Positions 55,286 to 62,555 of a DNA stretch of 64,000 bases are shown piece after piece. The notes beneath the pieces are model-generated. The model searched no databases. It was given only the letters and a program-made list of their open reading frames with translations, and was not told the origin of the DNA. This stretch comes from Spirochaetia bacterium (GTDB lineage Bacteria > Spirochaetota > Spirochaetia > Treponematales > Rectinemataceae), in the NCBI GenBank assembly GCA_029975555.1, contig JARKOY010000109.1, positions 62,001 to 126,000 of the forward strand. Direction: 5' to 3'. Numbering within the stretch: the stretch's first letter is position 1; the number at the start of each line of letters is the position of its first letter. Both the position numbers and the translations under genes were made by a program.

Positions 55286-56755
55286 ATGCCTGCGTCCATT
55301 CTTTGGTACGATCTTGAGACCTTCGGCCGCGATCCTCAGCACGACAGGATTGCCCAGTGCGCCTTTATCCGCACGAACGAGGCGCTTGAAGAGATCGCAC
55401 CGCCGGTCGTCCTGTACTGCCGTCTGCCTCCCGATTATCTTCCCGATCCTGAAGCCTGCTACATCCACGGCATAACGCCCCAGGAAGTCGAGCGGAACGG
55501 ACTGTGCGAGTACGAATTTGCCCAGCGCATCATGCGTGAAATGAGTGTCCCCAACACGACGGTCGCAGGCTACAATTCCATTCAGTTCGACGACGAGTTC
55601 ATCCGCCGCCTCTTCTACCGCAACCTCCTCGATCCCTATACACGGGAATATAAGAACGACAATTCGCGCTGGGACGTCATCAATCTCCTGCGCGCCGTAC
55701 ACGACCTGAAATACGAGGGTTTCATCTGGCCCGTCAACGGAGACGGTAACCCTTCGTTCAAGCTGGAAGAGCTCGCCAAGGCGAACGGCGTCGCGCACGA
55801 GAACGCTCACGACGCGCTGTTCGACGTGCGCGCGACCATCGGACTAGCGCAGAAGGTGCGCAGGACCTATCCTCGGCTGTACCAGTGGTATTTCCAGCAC
55901 AGGCGTCGAGAGAAATTGACTCCTTTAGTCAACCTTTCGCTGCGCGAGAACATGCTCGTGCATACCTCGCAGCTGTATACGAGGGCGGGAGGCTGCTCGA
56001 CGGTGATCACTCCCCTCGGGCTCGTCGAGGCCGACCGCCACGCCCTTGTGGCGTACGATTTGCGCTTCAGCCCAGTTCCTTTTTACGGGATGTCGGAAGA
56101 CGAGCTGCGCGACCTGGTGTTCACCGAGCGCCTCGAAGGGGGACCGGTGCCTCCTCCCATCACCATGATCCGGCTCAACAGCTGTCCGTATTTGGCCCCC
56201 CTCTCTGTGCTCGACGGGCGGGCGGCAAAGAGGCTCGACATCGACATTGAAGCGTGTAGGCGGCACTTAGGCGAGCTCGAAGCAGTTTCAGGTCTAAAGG
56301 AGCGGCTCGTCGCGGCGTACCGCTCCGAGCGAAAGCCTCTGGACCTGGACGAGCTCGATCCGGAGTACGCGCTGTACGGGGGAGGCTTTTATCCCGATGA
56401 AGACAGAAGAGTGCTCGAGCGTTTCCACGAGGTGCTACAGCACGAAGGGCCGCACGCGGCCAAAAATAAATTTTTGCGCGTCCAATTCCGCGATCCGAGG
56501 ATACTCACCCTCATGGGCAGGCTCTTGGCGCGCAACTTTCCTGAAACCTTGACCGCGGAGCAGCATTTATCGTGGAGGAAGCACGCGTATGGATGGGTTC
56601 AACTCCCTCTGGAGAAAGGCGCCACGGCGCTCGCGGATTACGTCCGCCTGGAGCAACAGCTCGGGGAGATGAGCGCCGATGACCCGCGCAGGCCGATCGC
56701 GGTGGCACTCCTCGCATGGAAGGAGAAAATCGAGAAGTTCATCCGCGAGCAGTAG
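55286..56755 (+). CDS. sbcB: Exodeoxyribonuclease I
   Basis: This 489-aa DEDDh exonuclease is full length for the SbcB family. Catalytic acids are Asp9 and Glu11 (WYDLETFG), Asp in YNSIQFDDEF and the His/Asp of NAHDALFDVRATI. The family-specific SH3-like and C-terminal parts are present (LNSCPYLAPLSVLDGRAAKRLDID; LLARNFPETLTAEQHLSW). It degrades single-stranded DNA 3' to 5' in recombination and repair. The family is best known from Gammaproteobacteria. Confidence 0.93.
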   Translation: MPASILWYDLETFGRDPQHDRIAQCAFIRTNEALEEIAPPVVLYCRLPPDYLPDPEACYIHGITPQEVERNGLCEYEFAQRIMREMSVPNTTVAGYNSIQFDDEFIRRLFYRNLLDPYTREYKNDNSRWDVINLLRAVHDLKYEGFIWPVNGDGNPSFKLEELAKANGVAHENAHDALFDVRATIGLAQKVRRTYPRLYQWYFQHRRREKLTPLVNLSLRENMLVHTSQLYTRAGGCSTVITPLGLVEADRHALVAYDLRFSPVPFYGMSEDELRDLVFTERLEGGPVPPPITMIRLNSCPYLAPLSVLDGRAAKRLDIDIEACRRHLGELEAVSGLKERLVAAYRSERKPLDLDELDPEYALYGGGFYPDEDRRVLERFHEVLQHEGPHAAKNKFLRVQFRDPRILTLMGRLLARNFPETLTAEQHLSWRKHAYGWVQLPLEKGATALADYVRLEQQLGEMSADDPRRPIAVALLAWKEKIEKFIREQ

Positions 56756-56825
56756 GGAGTGCTGAAAATTGCGGCGGGTTGCGGCATAATTGTAAGTGTA
56801 CAAGAGTGTACAAGGGGGCGTTGCA

Positions 56826-57317
56826 ATGAAGTGCAGGTGTGGTGTAGCAATTTTTTTCGCCGTACTGGCGATGTGTGCGGCCGTCGCGCAGACGACGCCT
56901 TTGGACAGCACCATGCTCATCAAGGTCGAAAGGGCAGCGTTGCGCACCGCACCCTCCTTTGCTGCTCCTGTCATGGTCTTCGCGGCGTATCGGACTCCCT
57001 TTGCCGTCATACGCAGGATCGACGACTGGGTCTACGGCTATGTCCAGGGATCCAGACTGCCCGGATACCTCCATATCAGCGCCCTTTCTCCCGCCAAGCT
57101 TCCCTTGGGCGCAGAAGCTGCCTCTACGCCGCCCGCACTGCAGGAGAGCGAGATCGTGCTCGCCGGCAAAGGGTTTTCGTCGAGCCTCGAGGCGGCGCTC
57201 AAGGAAGGCAGCGCCTTCAATTTCTCTGCGGTGGACGATATGGTACGACTGACGTATTCGTATGCAGACTGTCTGGCATTCATCCAGGGAGCTGATATCT
57301 CGTCCGGAGCACCGTGA
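56826..57317 (+). CDS. Exported SH3-like domain protein
   Basis: This 163-aa protein has a signal peptide (MKCRCGVAIFFAVLAMCAAVAQ) and an SH3b-like fold: VERAALRTAPSFAAPVMVFAAYRTPFAVIRRIDDWVYGYVQGSRLPGYLHISAL (~34-87). The C-terminal third is unassigned. It is separated by a TGAC from the GTG start of the M48 lipoprotein gene, so they are translationally coupled. Bacterial SH3 domains often bind cell wall or protein ligands; the role here is open. Confidence 0.78.
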   Translation: MKCRCGVAIFFAVLAMCAAVAQTTPLDSTMLIKVERAALRTAPSFAAPVMVFAAYRTPFAVIRRIDDWVYGYVQGSRLPGYLHISALSPAKLPLGAEAASTPPALQESEIVLAGKGFSSSLEAALKEGSAFNFSAVDDMVRLTYSYADCLAFIQGADISSGAP

Positions 57318-57318
57318 C

Positions 57319-58401
57319 GTGCACGCAGTCGCACGCCGATTTCGCACGGTGGCGGTCCTCCTCGCCCTGTGCTTGGCCGCCTCATCCTTCGTGTCGTGCA
57401 CCGTCTCGCCCGAGGCTCTCCAGCTCTTTTTGGATCAGGCGCTTCTTCAGGGCATGATCACGCCCGAGCAGGCCAGGCTCATTCGCGAAGCCGCGCGCTC
57501 CTTTCAAGCTGAAGCCAGACCATTCACCTACGAGGAGGAGTACGCCATAGGACGAGTGGTCGCGGCCGCCGTGCTTTCTCAGTATCCGGTCTACGATCAG
57601 CCTGAACTCACCGCGTACGTGAACAAGATAGGGCAGGGCCTGGCGTTCTTCTCTGCGCGGCCGCTCTTGCCCCAGGGCTACCATATGCTGATCCTCGACA
57701 GCGAGGAGGCGCATGCCTTCGCAGCGCCAGGGGGGCTCGTGCTCGTCACGCGAGGGCTTCTGAGGCTCGCAGGTTCCGAGGACATGCTCGCAGCGCTGCT
57801 CGCGCATGAAATTTCGCACACGGCACTCGGGCACGGGCTGGTTTCCCTCGCGAGCTACCGCATGGGGGACCTGGCCGTGCAGTACGCGACACTCTCGACG
57901 CAGCACGCGAATGCCGGCAATAAAGAGGCGGCGGCGCTCTTGTCGGCGGCGGTCCACGATTTCGTTTCTCTGATTTCGGTGCAGGGATATTCACAGACCA
58001 TGGAGTTCGAGGCGGATGCCGAGGCCCTGCGCATGCTGTACCTGGCCGGGTACAGGACTTCCGCGCTCGAGAGTTTCATACAGGTGCTGGCGAATTCCCA
58101 TGACGAGCGCACGCAGCAATATTCGATGCAGCATCCTTTGCCGGCTGAAAGACTGAAAAGAATCAGCGCGATCGAAGCGCAGTACGCGCAGGCGGCGGCG
58201 CGCGCTGTCCGACTGCAGCGTTCACGGGGCATCGCTTCGCTCCTCCGCGTGGAAGGTGAATCGATGGATGTCGGCTATCCGGCTGCCGAAAGAAGTTTTT
58301 CGGGGCTGGACCTCGAAACGGGGAACGGTGAGTTGATGAGCGTGGCGCCCCTTGAGCTCATCCGGCGGGAACGTTTCGAGGCGATGCGGCTGTTGTTCTA
58401 G
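57319..58401 (+). CDS. M48-family metallopeptidase lipoprotein
   Basis: This 360-aa protein is read from a GTG one base after the previous stop, with GGAGC upstream. It has a lipoprotein signal with lipobox FVSC (Cys27). The zinc peptidase core is LAALLAHEISHTALGHG (HExxH at ~163) with the third ligand Glu in MEFEADAEALRML. PGGLVLVTRGLL and QYSMQHPLPAERLKRI are typical of the BepA/YfgC group, which handles outer-membrane protein assembly or degradation. Periplasmic, membrane-anchored. Confidence 0.9.
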   Translation: MHAVARRFRTVAVLLALCLAASSFVSCTVSPEALQLFLDQALLQGMITPEQARLIREAARSFQAEARPFTYEEEYAIGRVVAAAVLSQYPVYDQPELTAYVNKIGQGLAFFSARPLLPQGYHMLILDSEEAHAFAAPGGLVLVTRGLLRLAGSEDMLAALLAHEISHTALGHGLVSLASYRMGDLAVQYATLSTQHANAGNKEAAALLSAAVHDFVSLISVQGYSQTMEFEADAEALRMLYLAGYRTSALESFIQVLANSHDERTQQYSMQHPLPAERLKRISAIEAQYAQAAARAVRLQRSRGIASLLRVEGESMDVGYPAAERSFSGLDLETGNGELMSVAPLELIRRERFEAMRLLF

Positions 58402-58409
58402 GAGGCCCT

Positions 58410-60461
58410 ATGGCGGGGAGCGCCCGAGGCTCGGCATTGAAGTCCCATTCGAGGATGAATAGAGTTGCGCGGTTTCTGTGCGCCGTGGCTGTTGGCGTGG
58501 CGGCTGCGCTTGTGGCTCTTTGGACGGGAACCTCGGAAAAGCTCGGGATGGCCATCTACGACAGTCAGATGCGAGCGCTCGTCAGTCGTCCCGGGGGGCA
58601 GGCCGTTGTCGCCCCCCTTGGAATCTTACGTAAAATTCGGGGTACGGCAAATCAGGATAGGTCAAATTCTGGTAACTCCGCCGCTCCAGAAATCTTACGT
58701 AAGATTACGGGCACGTCAAGTTCTGACAAACCCCCGTCCCACTCCGCGCTCCTTCCCGCCGACACCTCGCCGATCGTCCTCGTCATGATCGATCAGTCCA
58801 GCCTCGACTGGGTCCAGAAAGAGCTTGGGCTCGGCTGGCCCTGGCCGAGAGAACTCTATGGCGTGATGGCCTCGTATCTGCGCGACGCCAGCGTGCAGGC
58901 TTACGATATCCTGTTCACTGAACCTTCTACGTTCGGGCCAGAGGATGATGCCCGATGTTCGAAGGCGATGACCGAGGCCGGCAATGTGGTGCTTGCCACA
59001 CTGACGGACAAAAGGCCCGTGCTCGATGTGCCCAACGCGCTGTTTGGGCACGTGAACGCAGCACTCGACGCCGACGGTATCTGCAGAAAATATCGAGTGT
59101 GGCTGGGCCGCGACGGCGAGCGGATCCCTTCGCTCGGCCTTGCGGCGCTTCGTGCGGCGGGCGTGGAGAGCATCGTGCCTCGGTCCGGCGAAGTGCTGCT
59201 CAGATTCGAACATCCGTCGAGGTTCGAGCGGTACAGCGCGGCGCAGATCATCGCCGCCTCATTCCACGCTTCGGGTGAAAGTCTACGCATCGATGTACAA
59301 GATAAAATCGTGCTGGTCGGCCTCACCGCGCCCGGGCTCATGGACAGACAGGCGACGCCGATCAGCCCCGCGCTGCCGGGCGTAGAGGTGCATGCGACAT
59401 TCATCAGCGACGCTCTTTCCGCCTCCTTCATGCGGCGCGCATCGCCCTGGCTCGAGATGCTCGTGGCCGTGGCCGCCATCGCGCTCGTCGGCTATTTCCC
59501 ACTGCTGCGCAAAAAGTGGTTGGCGGCTCTGGGAACCGCGGCGACGGCAAGTCTTCCCATCGCCCTGAGCCTGATGCTGTTCCCATGTCGGCTCTTCTAT
59601 AATCCGGTTCTGGCGCTCTCAGGCGAACTTTTTGCCTTTGTTGCGGCGATAGCCCTCGGCTATCGGGCAGAGGGCAGGCAGCGGGCCTATCTCCGCAAGG
59701 CCTTTGCCCAATACCTCTCTCCCGAAGTGATCTCTGTCCTGGTGGAGCGGCCGGAGAGCCTCAGGCTGGGCGGCGAATCCAAGATCATCACGACCCTGTT
59801 TTCCGACATGGCAGGCTTCAGTTCGGTTTCAGAACGACTCGCCCCCGAACGGCTCGCACAGTTCATGAACGAGTATCTGGGCATCATCAGCGAAGAGATC
59901 CTCGCACAGGGCGGAACGCTGGACAAGTACGTCGGCGATGCGGTGGTGGCTTTCTGGAATGCGCCCCTGGACTCGCAGGATCATGCATACAGAGCCCTCG
60001 TCGCCGCGGCGCTCGTGCAGGAAAAATTGCTGGCGAGAAGGAGTGAATTTGAGCAGCGCTTTGGGATCTTTCCACGGACGCGGATCGGCATCGCGACGGG
60101 ACAGGCCGTGGTGGGGAATCTCGGTTCGAACAAGCGCTTCGCCTACACCGCGGTGGGTGATTCGGTGAACATTGCGAGCCGACTTGAGGCCGCAAACAAG
60201 GCGCTCGGCACATCCGTCCTGACGATGCAGGATACGGTCGCTTCGGCTGTGAACGCCGAAGGCGCAGGGGGTCTTCCGCCCGAACTGCGGCGGCCGCTGC
60301 CCGGCGGCGGAAGTCTCATCCTGCGCAGGTTGGGACCTACCCTCGTGGAAGGTAAGACCCAGCCCATCGAGCTGTGGTCCGTCGAAACGCCGGACAGTCA
60401 AGGCGTAAGGCTGCCGGACTGCGTTGAGCCCTGGAGTGAGGTCCGGCATCTCTCAAAATGA
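58410..60461 (+). CDS. CHASE2-domain adenylate cyclase
   Basis: This 683-aa protein has one N-terminal transmembrane helix (~20-40) and a periplasmic CHASE2 sensor (~118-340; PIVLVMIDQSSLDWVQ, GWPWPRELY). Three transmembrane helices (~345-425) and a cytoplasmic class III cyclase follow. Metal-binding Asp residues lie in LFSDMAGFSS (~465) and YVGDAVVAFW (~509). Lys in DKYVGDA and the YTAVGDSVNIASRLE block favour ATP over GTP. The linker between the first helix and CHASE2 is 55-60 residues instead of a short one and contains a duplicated ILRKI(R/T)GT peptide, coded by a repeated palindromic element. Confidence 0.92.
   Translation: MAGSARGSALKSHSRMNRVARFLCAVAVGVAAALVALWTGTSEKLGMAIYDSQMRALVSRPGGQAVVAPLGILRKIRGTANQDRSNSGNSAAPEILRKITGTSSSDKPPSHSALLPADTSPIVLVMIDQSSLDWVQKELGLGWPWPRELYGVMASYLRDASVQAYDILFTEPSTFGPEDDARCSKAMTEAGNVVLATLTDKRPVLDVPNALFGHVNAALDADGICRKYRVWLGRDGERIPSLGLAALRAAGVESIVPRSGEVLLRFEHPSRFERYSAAQIIAASFHASGESLRIDVQDKIVLVGLTAPGLMDRQATPISPALPGVEVHATFISDALSASFMRRASPWLEMLVAVAAIALVGYFPLLRKKWLAALGTAATASLPIALSLMLFPCRLFYNPVLALSGELFAFVAAIALGYRAEGRQRAYLRKAFAQYLSPEVISVLVERPESLRLGGESKIITTLFSDMAGFSSVSERLAPERLAQFMNEYLGIISEEILAQGGTLDKYVGDAVVAFWNAPLDSQDHAYRALVAAALVQEKLLARRSEFEQRFGIFPRTRIGIATGQAVVGNLGSNKRFAYTAVGDSVNIASRLEAANKALGTSVLTMQDTVASAVNAEGAGGLPPELRRPLPGGGSLILRRLGPTLVEGKTQPIELWSVETPDSQGVRLPDCVEPWSEVRHLSK
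58622..58730 (+). repeat. Two copies of a palindromic element inside the cyclase gene
   Basis: AATCTTACGTAA begins both copies (58622 and 58691). The second copy has the perfect palindrome AATCTTACGTAAGATT, then CGGGCACGTCAAGTTCTG; the first has a variant with an extra ~14 bases before TCAAATTCTG. Both are in frame and encode ILRKI(R/T)GT. They lie in the linker before the CHASE2 domain. Confidence 0.75.
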
Positions 60462-60512
60462 GGGGCGAGCGCTGTCAGAGAGGTTTTCGGCACTCATTCT
60501 GTGTCTCACTCA

Positions 60513-61271
60513 TTACAATAAAAACAACAATGCGGCGAGGCCTAGGAGCCCCCAGTCCCAGCCTGTAAATTTTTTCAGCCTCAGACTTCTTTGGGGCGAG
60601 TAGCCTCGGGCTTCCATCGCCACCGCGGTCCGCCATGCCTGGACCATGCTGCCGATGATCAATTGTTCGAGCATGAGGAGTGTGCGTCGGACGTTTCGCC
60701 TTGAGAGCCCTATGCCCCGAACTTCTCCGGCTTCCTTGATCCGCTGGTAGGTGTCGAAAATCCGCGGCAGAAAGAGCAGCACGAGCGAAAACAGCATGCC
60801 GGGGTCCCCCATGATGCCTGGCTCTTTCTCCTGAGCGCTTCTCCTTTTCCGAATGAGCCTGCGGACCACGCGTACGGCGGCCGTCATCCAGTCGCCTATT
60901 TCGCCCACGCGGGTGGTCGCGTAGAAGAGTCTCGAGTAGACATACACGGTGAAGAGCCTCAGCGCGTAGAGGCCGGACGCAGGCAGCGTCGTGAGGTCGA
61001 AGAGCCGGCCGTCGCCGGGCAGCACCCCCCGCGCAAGTGCCGCAAATGCCGCCAGCGCTGCGATGGACAACAGGGCTCCACCGGCGACTTTAGGCAATCG
61101 CATCAGCGCGAGAATGCCGAGCGCAAAGAGCACCACCATGACGCCGAGACTAGACCGCATCGCCGCAGATGCAACCCCCAGCAGAAATACGAGCTTTGCG
61201 AGGGGATGCATCGTCGCCAGCGCACTCTTCCCAGGCTCGAACGCAAAAGGATTCGCTAGTCGATTCGCCAT
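60513..61271 (-). CDS. ecfT: ECF transporter transmembrane component
   Basis: This 252-aa membrane protein of the CbiQ/EcfT family has about five hydrophobic segments and the coupling region with Ala-Arg-Gly motifs (EAGEVRGIGLSRRNVRRTL and MEARGYSPQRSLR, which contain the characteristic xRG/ARG signatures). It couples the ATPase to the substrate-binding S component. The ATG at 61271 overlaps the end of the ATPase gene; an upstream GTG at 61295 is possible but has no better ribosome site. Confidence 0.87.
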   Translation of the reverse strand: MANRLANPFAFEPGKSALATMHPLAKLVFLLGVASAAMRSSLGVMVVLFALGILALMRLPKVAGGALLSIAALAAFAALARGVLPGDGRLFDLTTLPASGLYALRLFTVYVYSRLFYATTRVGEIGDWMTAAVRVVRRLIRKRRSAQEKEPGIMGDPGMLFSLVLLFLPRIFDTYQRIKEAGEVRGIGLSRRNVRRTLLMLEQLIIGSMVQAWRTAVAMEARGYSPQRSLRLKKFTGWDWGLLGLAALLFLL

Positions 61272-61999
61272 GGATAGCACTCGCGGTAGGGGCACACGAG
61301 CCCAGTCTGCACAAAGACCTCTTTGGGGGCCTGGCGTGGGGGTGCGTCAAAGACAAGCCTGCCATGATCGAGGATCACGAGCCTCGATGCCAGAGAAAAG
61401 ACTTTCTCAATTTCGTGGGTGAGCACGATGAGGGTCTTGCCCTCCGCGCGCAGCGCTGTGAGCACGTCGATGATTTCCATAGCGGAGGGAAAATCCAAAT
61501 TCGCGAACGGCTCGTCGAGGATCACGCAGCGCGGCTTCATGGCGAGGACGCCCGCAATGGCGAGCCTGCGTTTTTCGCCGCCGGAGAGCGTGAGAGGCCG
61601 GCGGTCCGACATCCCCTCGAGGCGGGCCTCGCGGAGCGCCTGGCGGACGGCTTCTTCGAGCTCTTTTCCACGAATGCCCAGGTTCGCGGGCCCGAATGCC
61701 AGGTCCTCTTCCACGGTCTGTCCGAAAATCTGGGCTTCGGTGTCTTGAAAGACATAGCCGACTTCCTTCCGGATCAGCGGAATCTGCGACGCGATGGGTG
61801 CGCCGCGATACAAAATAGCCCCTGAGCTTGGTTTGGAGAGGCCTATGAAGTGCCGCATGAGCAGCGATTTGCCCGCGCCGTTCTTCCCTGCGACGATGAC
61901 GAACTCTCCCTCGTCGATGGAGAGCGACAGGTCCTCGAGACCGACCTTGCCGTCCGGAAACAGGTGTCCAAGCCCCTCCGCGCGAAAAAGTTCAGCCAT
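61256..61999 (-). CDS. ecfA: ECF transporter ATPase
   Basis: This 247-aa ABC ATPase has Walker A GKNGAGKSLL (~38-47), the Q-loop GYVFQDTEAQIFG typical of ECF ATPases, the signature LSGGEKRRLAIAGVLAM and Walker B CVILDEPFANLD. The switch His is in VLTHE. It provides energy for the S component encoded just upstream; the start overlaps the end of bioY by 8 bases. Confidence 0.93.
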   Translation of the reverse strand: MAELFRAEGLGHLFPDGKVGLEDLSLSIDEGEFVIVAGKNGAGKSLLMRHFIGLSKPSSGAILYRGAPIASQIPLIRKEVGYVFQDTEAQIFGQTVEEDLAFGPANLGIRGKELEEAVRQALREARLEGMSDRRPLTLSGGEKRRLAIAGVLAMKPRCVILDEPFANLDFPSAMEIIDVLTALRAEGKTLIVLTHEIEKVFSLASRLVILDHGRLVFDAPPRQAPKEVFVQTGLVCPYRECYPWRID

Positions 62000-62555
62000 C
62001 GCTCGTCTGCTGCTCGATGTGGCGCAGCGCTTTCAAAATTGGAGGCGCGAGGATGGAAGCGACGATGATCTTTGCGATATCGCCGGGAATGAAGGGAACA
62101 AGACCCATGGCGAGGGCCTTCGTCCAGTCCACGCCGAGAACTGCCTTCAGCCTGGCCACGCCGAACACGTAGACGACGGCCATGCCGACGACCCCTGCCA
62201 TCACATTGAAATACCACCGCTGCTTGCCAAGTCTTGAGAGAAGGCCGAAGGCGACCACTCCCGGCATGAAGCCGAAGAGATACCCGCCGGTCGGCCCCGC
62301 AAACTTAACTAGTCCGCCCGTACCGCCCGAGAATACGGGCAAACCCGCGGCTCCCAAGATCAAATAGAAGACGACCGAGGCGAGCCCCCACCATGGCCCG
62401 AGGATGAATCCTGCGAGAAGGATGAACATGTTCTGAAGCACGATCGGCACCGGTGTTCCCGGAATCGGAATTGCGATGTAGGCGCCGATGGAAATCAGGG
62501 CAGCGAAGAGGCACGCCATAATTGCACGGGTGAGTTTGGAATCAATGTTCTCCAT
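61992..62555 (-). CDS. bioY: Biotin transporter S component BioY
   Basis: This 187-aa membrane protein has six hydrophobic segments and the BioY signature: AYIAIPIPGTPVPIVLQNMFILLAGFILG (~25-53), GAAGLPVFSGGTGGL, and GPTGGYLFGFMPG. It binds biotin and works with EcfA and EcfT as a dedicated vitamin importer. It is the first gene of the three-gene minus-strand operon. Divergent from the asparagine attenuator region. Confidence 0.93.
   Translation of the reverse strand: MENIDSKLTRAIMACLFAALISIGAYIAIPIPGTPVPIVLQNMFILLAGFILGPWWGLASVVFYLILGAAGLPVFSGGTGGLVKFAGPTGGYLFGFMPGVVAFGLLSRLGKQRWYFNVMAGVVGMAVVYVFGVARLKAVLGVDWTKALAMGLVPFIPGDIAKIIVASILAPPILKALRHIEQQTSDG

Follow-up and report, generated by a model that had tools for sequence, protein, structure and literature searches.

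Tandem ACGT-centred palindromes in a CHASE2 cyclase gene and other genes of a spirochaete genus: predicted binding sites, likely of a MerR-family regulator

In the 64-kb window (the whole stretch of spirochaete DNA that was analysed, 64,000 nucleotides), a gene for a CHASE2/class III nucleotide cyclase carries two copies of a tandem palindromic site, which recurs in other genes and intergenic regions across the genus. Based on sequence comparison, these tandem sites are predicted to be DNA-binding sites, likely of a MerR-family regulator, and on balance, with modest confidence, we expect them to act locally, by repression at a promoter and as roadblocks within genes. Two ACGT-centred palindromes 16-17 bp apart would fit two protein dimers bound side by side, and the likely binder would be a four-cysteine MerR-family regulator encoded elsewhere in the genome, beside a BMP-family transporter operon. 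In the intergenic region between the MerR and BMP genes, the tandem site lies just after the promoter-like -10 of the transporter, where binding could repress the BMP promoter. In seven conserved genes a site in the middle of the gene is retained by selection on codon choice, and in the cyclase linker it has been duplicated. Two dimers bound inside a gene could then form a switchable roadblock to RNA polymerase, and a roadblock is a plausible, if tentative, explanation of how binding inside genes would work.

The tandem site in the cyclase gene and across the genus

The cyclase gene, which hosts both sites, is an ORF of 683 aa on the forward strand (58410-60461), and its product matched the CHASE2 (E 2.3e-42) and Guanylate_cyc (E 3.5e-12) domains. 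The CHASE2 domain (residues 118-361; 58761-59492, forward strand) lies 3' of the linker that bears the sites. The earlier note had described two imperfect copies of an element, in frame in this gene and between its first transmembrane helix and the CHASE2 domain, and this description holds: both copies are in frame in the ORF, between an N-terminal hydrophobic segment (approximately residues 21-40, read by eye) and CHASE2, they encode ILRKIRGT and ILRKITGT as the note had read them, and they are indeed AT-richer than the surrounding DNA, with a local GC content of approximately 0.48-0.53 compared to approximately 0.6-0.65 in the flanks.

Profile R1, a sequence-only profile built from 22 sites, matched the window at 58621-58652 (site 1; 23.2 bits, E 4.6e-6) and at 58689-58724 (site 2; 34.3 bits, E 1.5e-9). 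The first unit of site 1 is the palindrome AATCTTACGTAAAATT with one mismatch (58622-58637), while the first unit of site 2 is AATCTTACGTAAGATT (58691-58706), the perfect 16-bp palindrome that had been reported for the second copy. When up to three mismatches were allowed, the palindrome matched the window just twice, compared to 0.08 matches expected from shuffling. The repeated unit exceeds the palindrome, as a second ACGT-centred unit of degenerate sequence lies at +16 behind each copy (GTACGGCAAAT; GCACGTCAAGTT), also written TACGGCAAAT and CACGTCAAGTT in the comparison with relatives. These second units were placed by alignment and R1, and, like the first units, were given no strand. The one of site 1 (58638-58653, CGGGGTACGGCAAATC) is degenerate in the window genome and better kept in copy 1 of the related genome G007 (TACGTCAGGTT), and the one of site 2 (58707-58722, ACGGGCACGTCAAGTT) keeps the ACGT and has as its core CACGTCAA, a string already named in the earlier note. 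The whole site therefore consists of two TnACGTnA-type palindromes 16-17 bp apart, with a conserved unit of approximately 33-37 bp; in the genus a 17-bp spacing is typical, and in the cyclase and SbcC sites the second unit is degenerate and spaced at 16 bp.

Both sites lie in a 69-bp tandem duplication (58610-58719, forward strand; copies 58610-58650 and 58679-58719), in which the copies, a direct repeat of 41 nt, are 76% identical and offset by 69 bp. The cyclase gene of G007 also has two sites, at 100835 and 100904, with the identical 69-bp spacing. Among the cyclase orthologues, the linker has 36 residues in the site-less gene of G002, 43-53 residues with one copy and 73-78 residues with two copies (G007 and the window genome). 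The linker is therefore lengthened, as had been proposed, but by approximately 20-40 residues and not by approximately 50. Only the additional 69-bp copy in the cyclase gene of the window genome and G007 seems to be gained sequence, through tandem duplication. The neighbourhood of the gene (55286-62555) contains an exonuclease I-like gene and an M48 peptidase gene upstream, and CbiQ-like, ABC ATPase-like and BioY-like genes downstream on the opposite strand; the M48-cyclase gene pair is preserved in G002 and G004.

The earlier note had proposed looking for further copies in the whole genome, in related spirochaetes and in intergenic DNA, and copies were found in all three. Related palindromes are present in the same genome at C111:18613, C111:154752 and C70:152831, coding and intergenic copies occur both there and in relatives, and the palindrome core recurs at orthologous positions among ten genomes of the genus. 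The long pattern CTTACGTAAGATTNNNGGCACGTCAAATTC matched the cyclase copies only and, taken alone, would suggest a repeat restricted to the cyclase gene; this was rejected, as shorter patterns and the profile found other loci. Two weak palindrome matches (C65:19151 and C151:42803) were regarded as chance, being absent among the listed profile matches.

A search of the ten genus genomes, which like all genomes compared are draft assemblies, gave more than 100 strand matches to R1 (E up to 10; best E 3.6e-10), whereas the reversed profile, which has the same composition and is also palindromic, gave 11 matches with a best E of 0.026. The refined profile R3, for which 111 matches were aligned, listed no site in the ten genomes beyond those already known. 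As R3 added nothing and the control gave only few and weak matches, the set of sites can be regarded as small and closed; every one of the ten genomes has some, from one (G006) to approximately ten.

Mid-coding sites were found in seven gene families: in the cyclase linker, in SbcC (codon 451-500), in a YkgJ-type gene (Pfam PF03692; codon ~39-70) located just 5' of a deoxynucleoside-kinase-like gene, in a predicted exported protein of approximately 1000 aa without a Pfam match (codon 365-462), in an ABC transporter ATPase (codon 104), in an aldolase-family gene (codon 239-246) and in SpeE (codon ~206-212). The functions of the host genes have no obvious common theme. Two recurrent loci are intergenic: the divergent region that separates the MerR-family gene from that of the BMP-family transporter, and the DNA upstream of a radical-SAM gene (TIGR03916) with a putative role in DNA modification/repair. 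The four lineage-specific sites (two in G002, one each in G003 and G004) are all intergenic, that of G003 being between convergent genes.

Local regulation or chromosome landmarks

Local action through a roadblock is slightly favoured over a role of the sites as chromosome landmarks, in which a MerR-family protein would organise, anchor or mark the chromosome by binding the approximately ten dispersed sites, whose location within genes would be irrelevant. This role is somewhat unlikely but has several observations in its favour. The sites are in unrelated genes at very different depths (codons 39 to ~500), and once between convergent genes, which is an odd place for either a roadblock or a promoter site. 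They are also scattered among contigs: the 605-kb origin contig of G007 carries one, and that of G000 carries none.

Proteins binding dispersed chromosomal sites include RacA, SlmA and Noc as well as RefZ, which is a precedent for landmarks. RefZ of Bacillus has five near-palindromic sites, the RBMs, with positions conserved across the genus (PMC6657595), and the sites described here resemble them in being a handful of near-palindromes per genome at positions conserved across the genus, as was found in most of the ten genomes. However, RefZ belongs to the TetR family while the candidate binder here is of the MerR family, and the genus sites differ in being tandem, with a 16-17 bp period, and mostly coding under constraint at the codon level. 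Against landmarks, it is the same gene, and not just the same region, that is retained across the genus, a site is present at the MerR/BMP promoter throughout, and the intergenic location of all four lineage-specific sites suits regulation. A combined possibility, that a local MerR-type transporter regulator was recruited as a chromosome organiser with approximately ten landmarks mostly in the codons of unrelated genes, is also unlikely.

Diverged parS sites were rejected as a candidate. The genus sites lack the canonical TGTTTCACGTGAAACA, and separate parS-like sites (zero or one mismatch) adjoin gyrA-like sequence in both loci read; therefore, the tandem sites are not parS. Close parS-like pairs with one mismatch were observed by gyrA-like sequence at C151:163202/163291 in G000 and C4:284311/284358 in G007, and such pairs probably mark the origin region in the genus. 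In the draft assembly of G007, the site on the parS contig is 229 kb from parS.

A MerR-family regulator as the candidate binder

Whether its role is local or not, the tandem site is likely bound by the MerR-family protein, judging from the association of the palindrome with its gene. The gene (L101:1476-1943, reverse strand) and its orthologues encode a cysteine-rich C-terminus, FFSCPGxxCxxC...C, with four invariant cysteines (C-x4-C-x2-C-x5-C) in eight aligned sequences, and the gene is linked to the BMP transporter, an alcohol dehydrogenase-like gene and an FGGY kinase gene. The protein matched the Pfam models MerR_1 (E 5.3e-17) and MerR (E 8.5e-16), and the solved structures nearest to it in sequence belong to MerR-type regulators, CueR and CadR among them, so that a regulator with a MerR HTH domain is encoded beside the putative operator.

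An orthologue search detected the gene in 46 of the 149 genomes of the order. Each of the 30 best loci, which came from two families of the order, has TnACGTnA no more than 140 bp upstream of the MerR coding match, compared to 4 of 582 background tiles, making the MerR protein the likely binder. Outside the genus, 5 out of 20 genomes from the other genera of the family had profile matches (E up to 0.003), and in these five, belonging to three genera (g6, g12 and g13), all matches adjoin the same MerR-family gene. The site is most likely the operator of the MerR regulator, which would originally have stood at the regulator's own locus and been joined by further sites in the genus. In several other Spirochaetales (L212, L213, L219 and L220), the two ACGT cores observed upstream of the MerR gene are separated by only approximately 10 bp, as in CTAACGTAATACGTAAGG, and this spacing differs from the 16-17 bp of the genus sites.

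As in operators of the MerR, CueR, ZntR and CadR type, a palindrome stands at the promoter of a regulator and its linked transporter, and the candidate protein matches the MerR Pfam models and solved MerR-type regulators. The position of the sites is different. Known MerR-type regulators bind within an unusual promoter spacer of 19-20 bp (PMC1526738), whereas the genus sites are tandem, apparently outside such a spacer and in many cases in the middle of a gene. With promoters read by eye, the site in the BMP promoter region directly follows a -10-like TATACT and the radical-SAM site is upstream of a candidate -35 TTGACA, so neither appears to be in a 19-20 bp spacer. The published consensuses of MerR-family metal regulators also differ from the ACGT-centred palindrome of the genus.

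This atypical operator position could mean that the sites are real but belong to another DNA-binding protein, for which the MerR gene would be one target. The same could be suggested by G008 and G003, which keep sites and in which an orthologue of the MerR gene was not found (assemblies 93% and 69% complete). However, the core accompanies the MerR gene in all 30 genomes examined from two families, matches outside the genus are solely at this gene, and no other regulator gene was recognised in the neighbourhoods inspected, which leaves a different binder improbable.

Constraint on the coding sites

The earlier note had compared the cyclase insert with the mobile palindromes that colonise coding sequences in Rickettsia. 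The resemblance stands insofar as the genus sites are palindromic, duplicated in the cyclase gene, recurrent and present in both coding and intergenic DNA, with the cyclase and SbcC sites sharing a reading frame; Rickettsia palindromic elements are likewise in-frame palindromes of protein genes and intergenic DNA, with orthologous positions common to species. What did not stand is mobile insertion, and a dispersed mobile element inserted in frame is very improbable here. The set is closed, with approximately 1-10 sites per genome at orthologous positions and none added by R3, the coding sites are read in three different frames, giving unrelated peptides, and their synonymous codons are conserved. 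The site in the ABC ATPase encodes KLPKEEILRKV and aligns across the site without a gap to 2yyz and PotA, and that in SpeE encodes KTLREVFLCVKS and is likewise gap-free in the alignment with 3anx and 1uir. Therefore, in these two genes the site is spelled by codon choice and nothing was inserted, which refutes the mobile reading for both; unlike in the Rickettsia elements, no residue is displaced. Length variation was seen in the cyclase linker only. The sites are also approximately 33 bp long, compared to 105-146 bp inserts with long stem-loops, and the features that define membership of the Rickettsia elements (added residues, 105-146 bp with a long stem-loop, and a dispersed multicopy family) were not found for the genus sites.

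Codon choice was assessed in two ways. With a weight matrix derived from intergenic sites only, the coding sites in 42 genes outscored 4000 synonymous recodings drawn with the codon use of the species (simulation p from 0.00025, the floor, to 0.0015), and the site-less cyclase of G002 gave p 0.32. As the genes were chosen from a genome-wide scan, the single p values look better than they should, and more weight belongs to the recurrence of the sites in several species. The second test was independent of the motif and measured synonymous-codon identity in 11-codon windows, which was at or near the maximum of the gene at the site in all seven families. For the aldolase, the exported protein, the YkgJ-type gene and the cyclase, none of the background windows reached the identity of the site, and for SbcC, the ABC ATPase and SpeE, 6 of 954, 4 of 324 and 18 of 280 windows did, respectively. 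The Fisher combined p for the seven families is approximately 1e-9, a value uncorrected for overlapping windows and shared ancestry. Judging by these conserved synonymous codons, selection acts on the DNA itself at the coding sites.

A functional LRKIxGT peptide selected at the protein level in the cyclase linker could be suggested by the recurrence of ILRKI-type peptides in the cyclase and SbcC orthologues, but is scarcely credible, as unrelated peptides are encoded in other frames elsewhere (KFNVRFFFTLN, ILTLDLIFRK, KLPKEEISRKV), the intergenic copies are non-coding, synonymous positions are constrained, and a conserved peptide with free codon choice was not seen. Least probable of all is an mRNA hairpin, to which a 6-bp stem and an ACGU loop could be assigned, but the 22 distinct sites contain no two-sided pair change, pair no better than shuffled sequences, are most conserved in the ACGT loop itself, and are near-symmetric and found on either strand.

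Regulator sites within bacterial genes are usually viewed as unconserved noise. In E. coli, most intragenic PhoB sites are unconserved and look inert (PMC10294691), and a number of intragenic sigma54 sites are conserved (PMC4591121). The genus sites are like these in being predicted regulator sites within genes, but, in contrast to those of PhoB, the coding sites are nearly all genus-wide and constrained at synonymous positions. What stands out is that the set is small, closed and shared across the genus, that synonymous codons preserve seven of its sites within unrelated genes, and that one particular protein, of the MerR family, is a candidate binder. Such a set would show the extent to which DNA-binding constraint shapes coding sequence, and may turn out to be a roadblock regulon or else a landmark system, which would be the first such system in spirochaetes as far as we know from a search that was not exhaustive.

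The G002 assembly contains the cyclase locus (C41/C91) and the aldolase locus (C1/C97) twice each, with equal scores, which is probably assembly redundancy.
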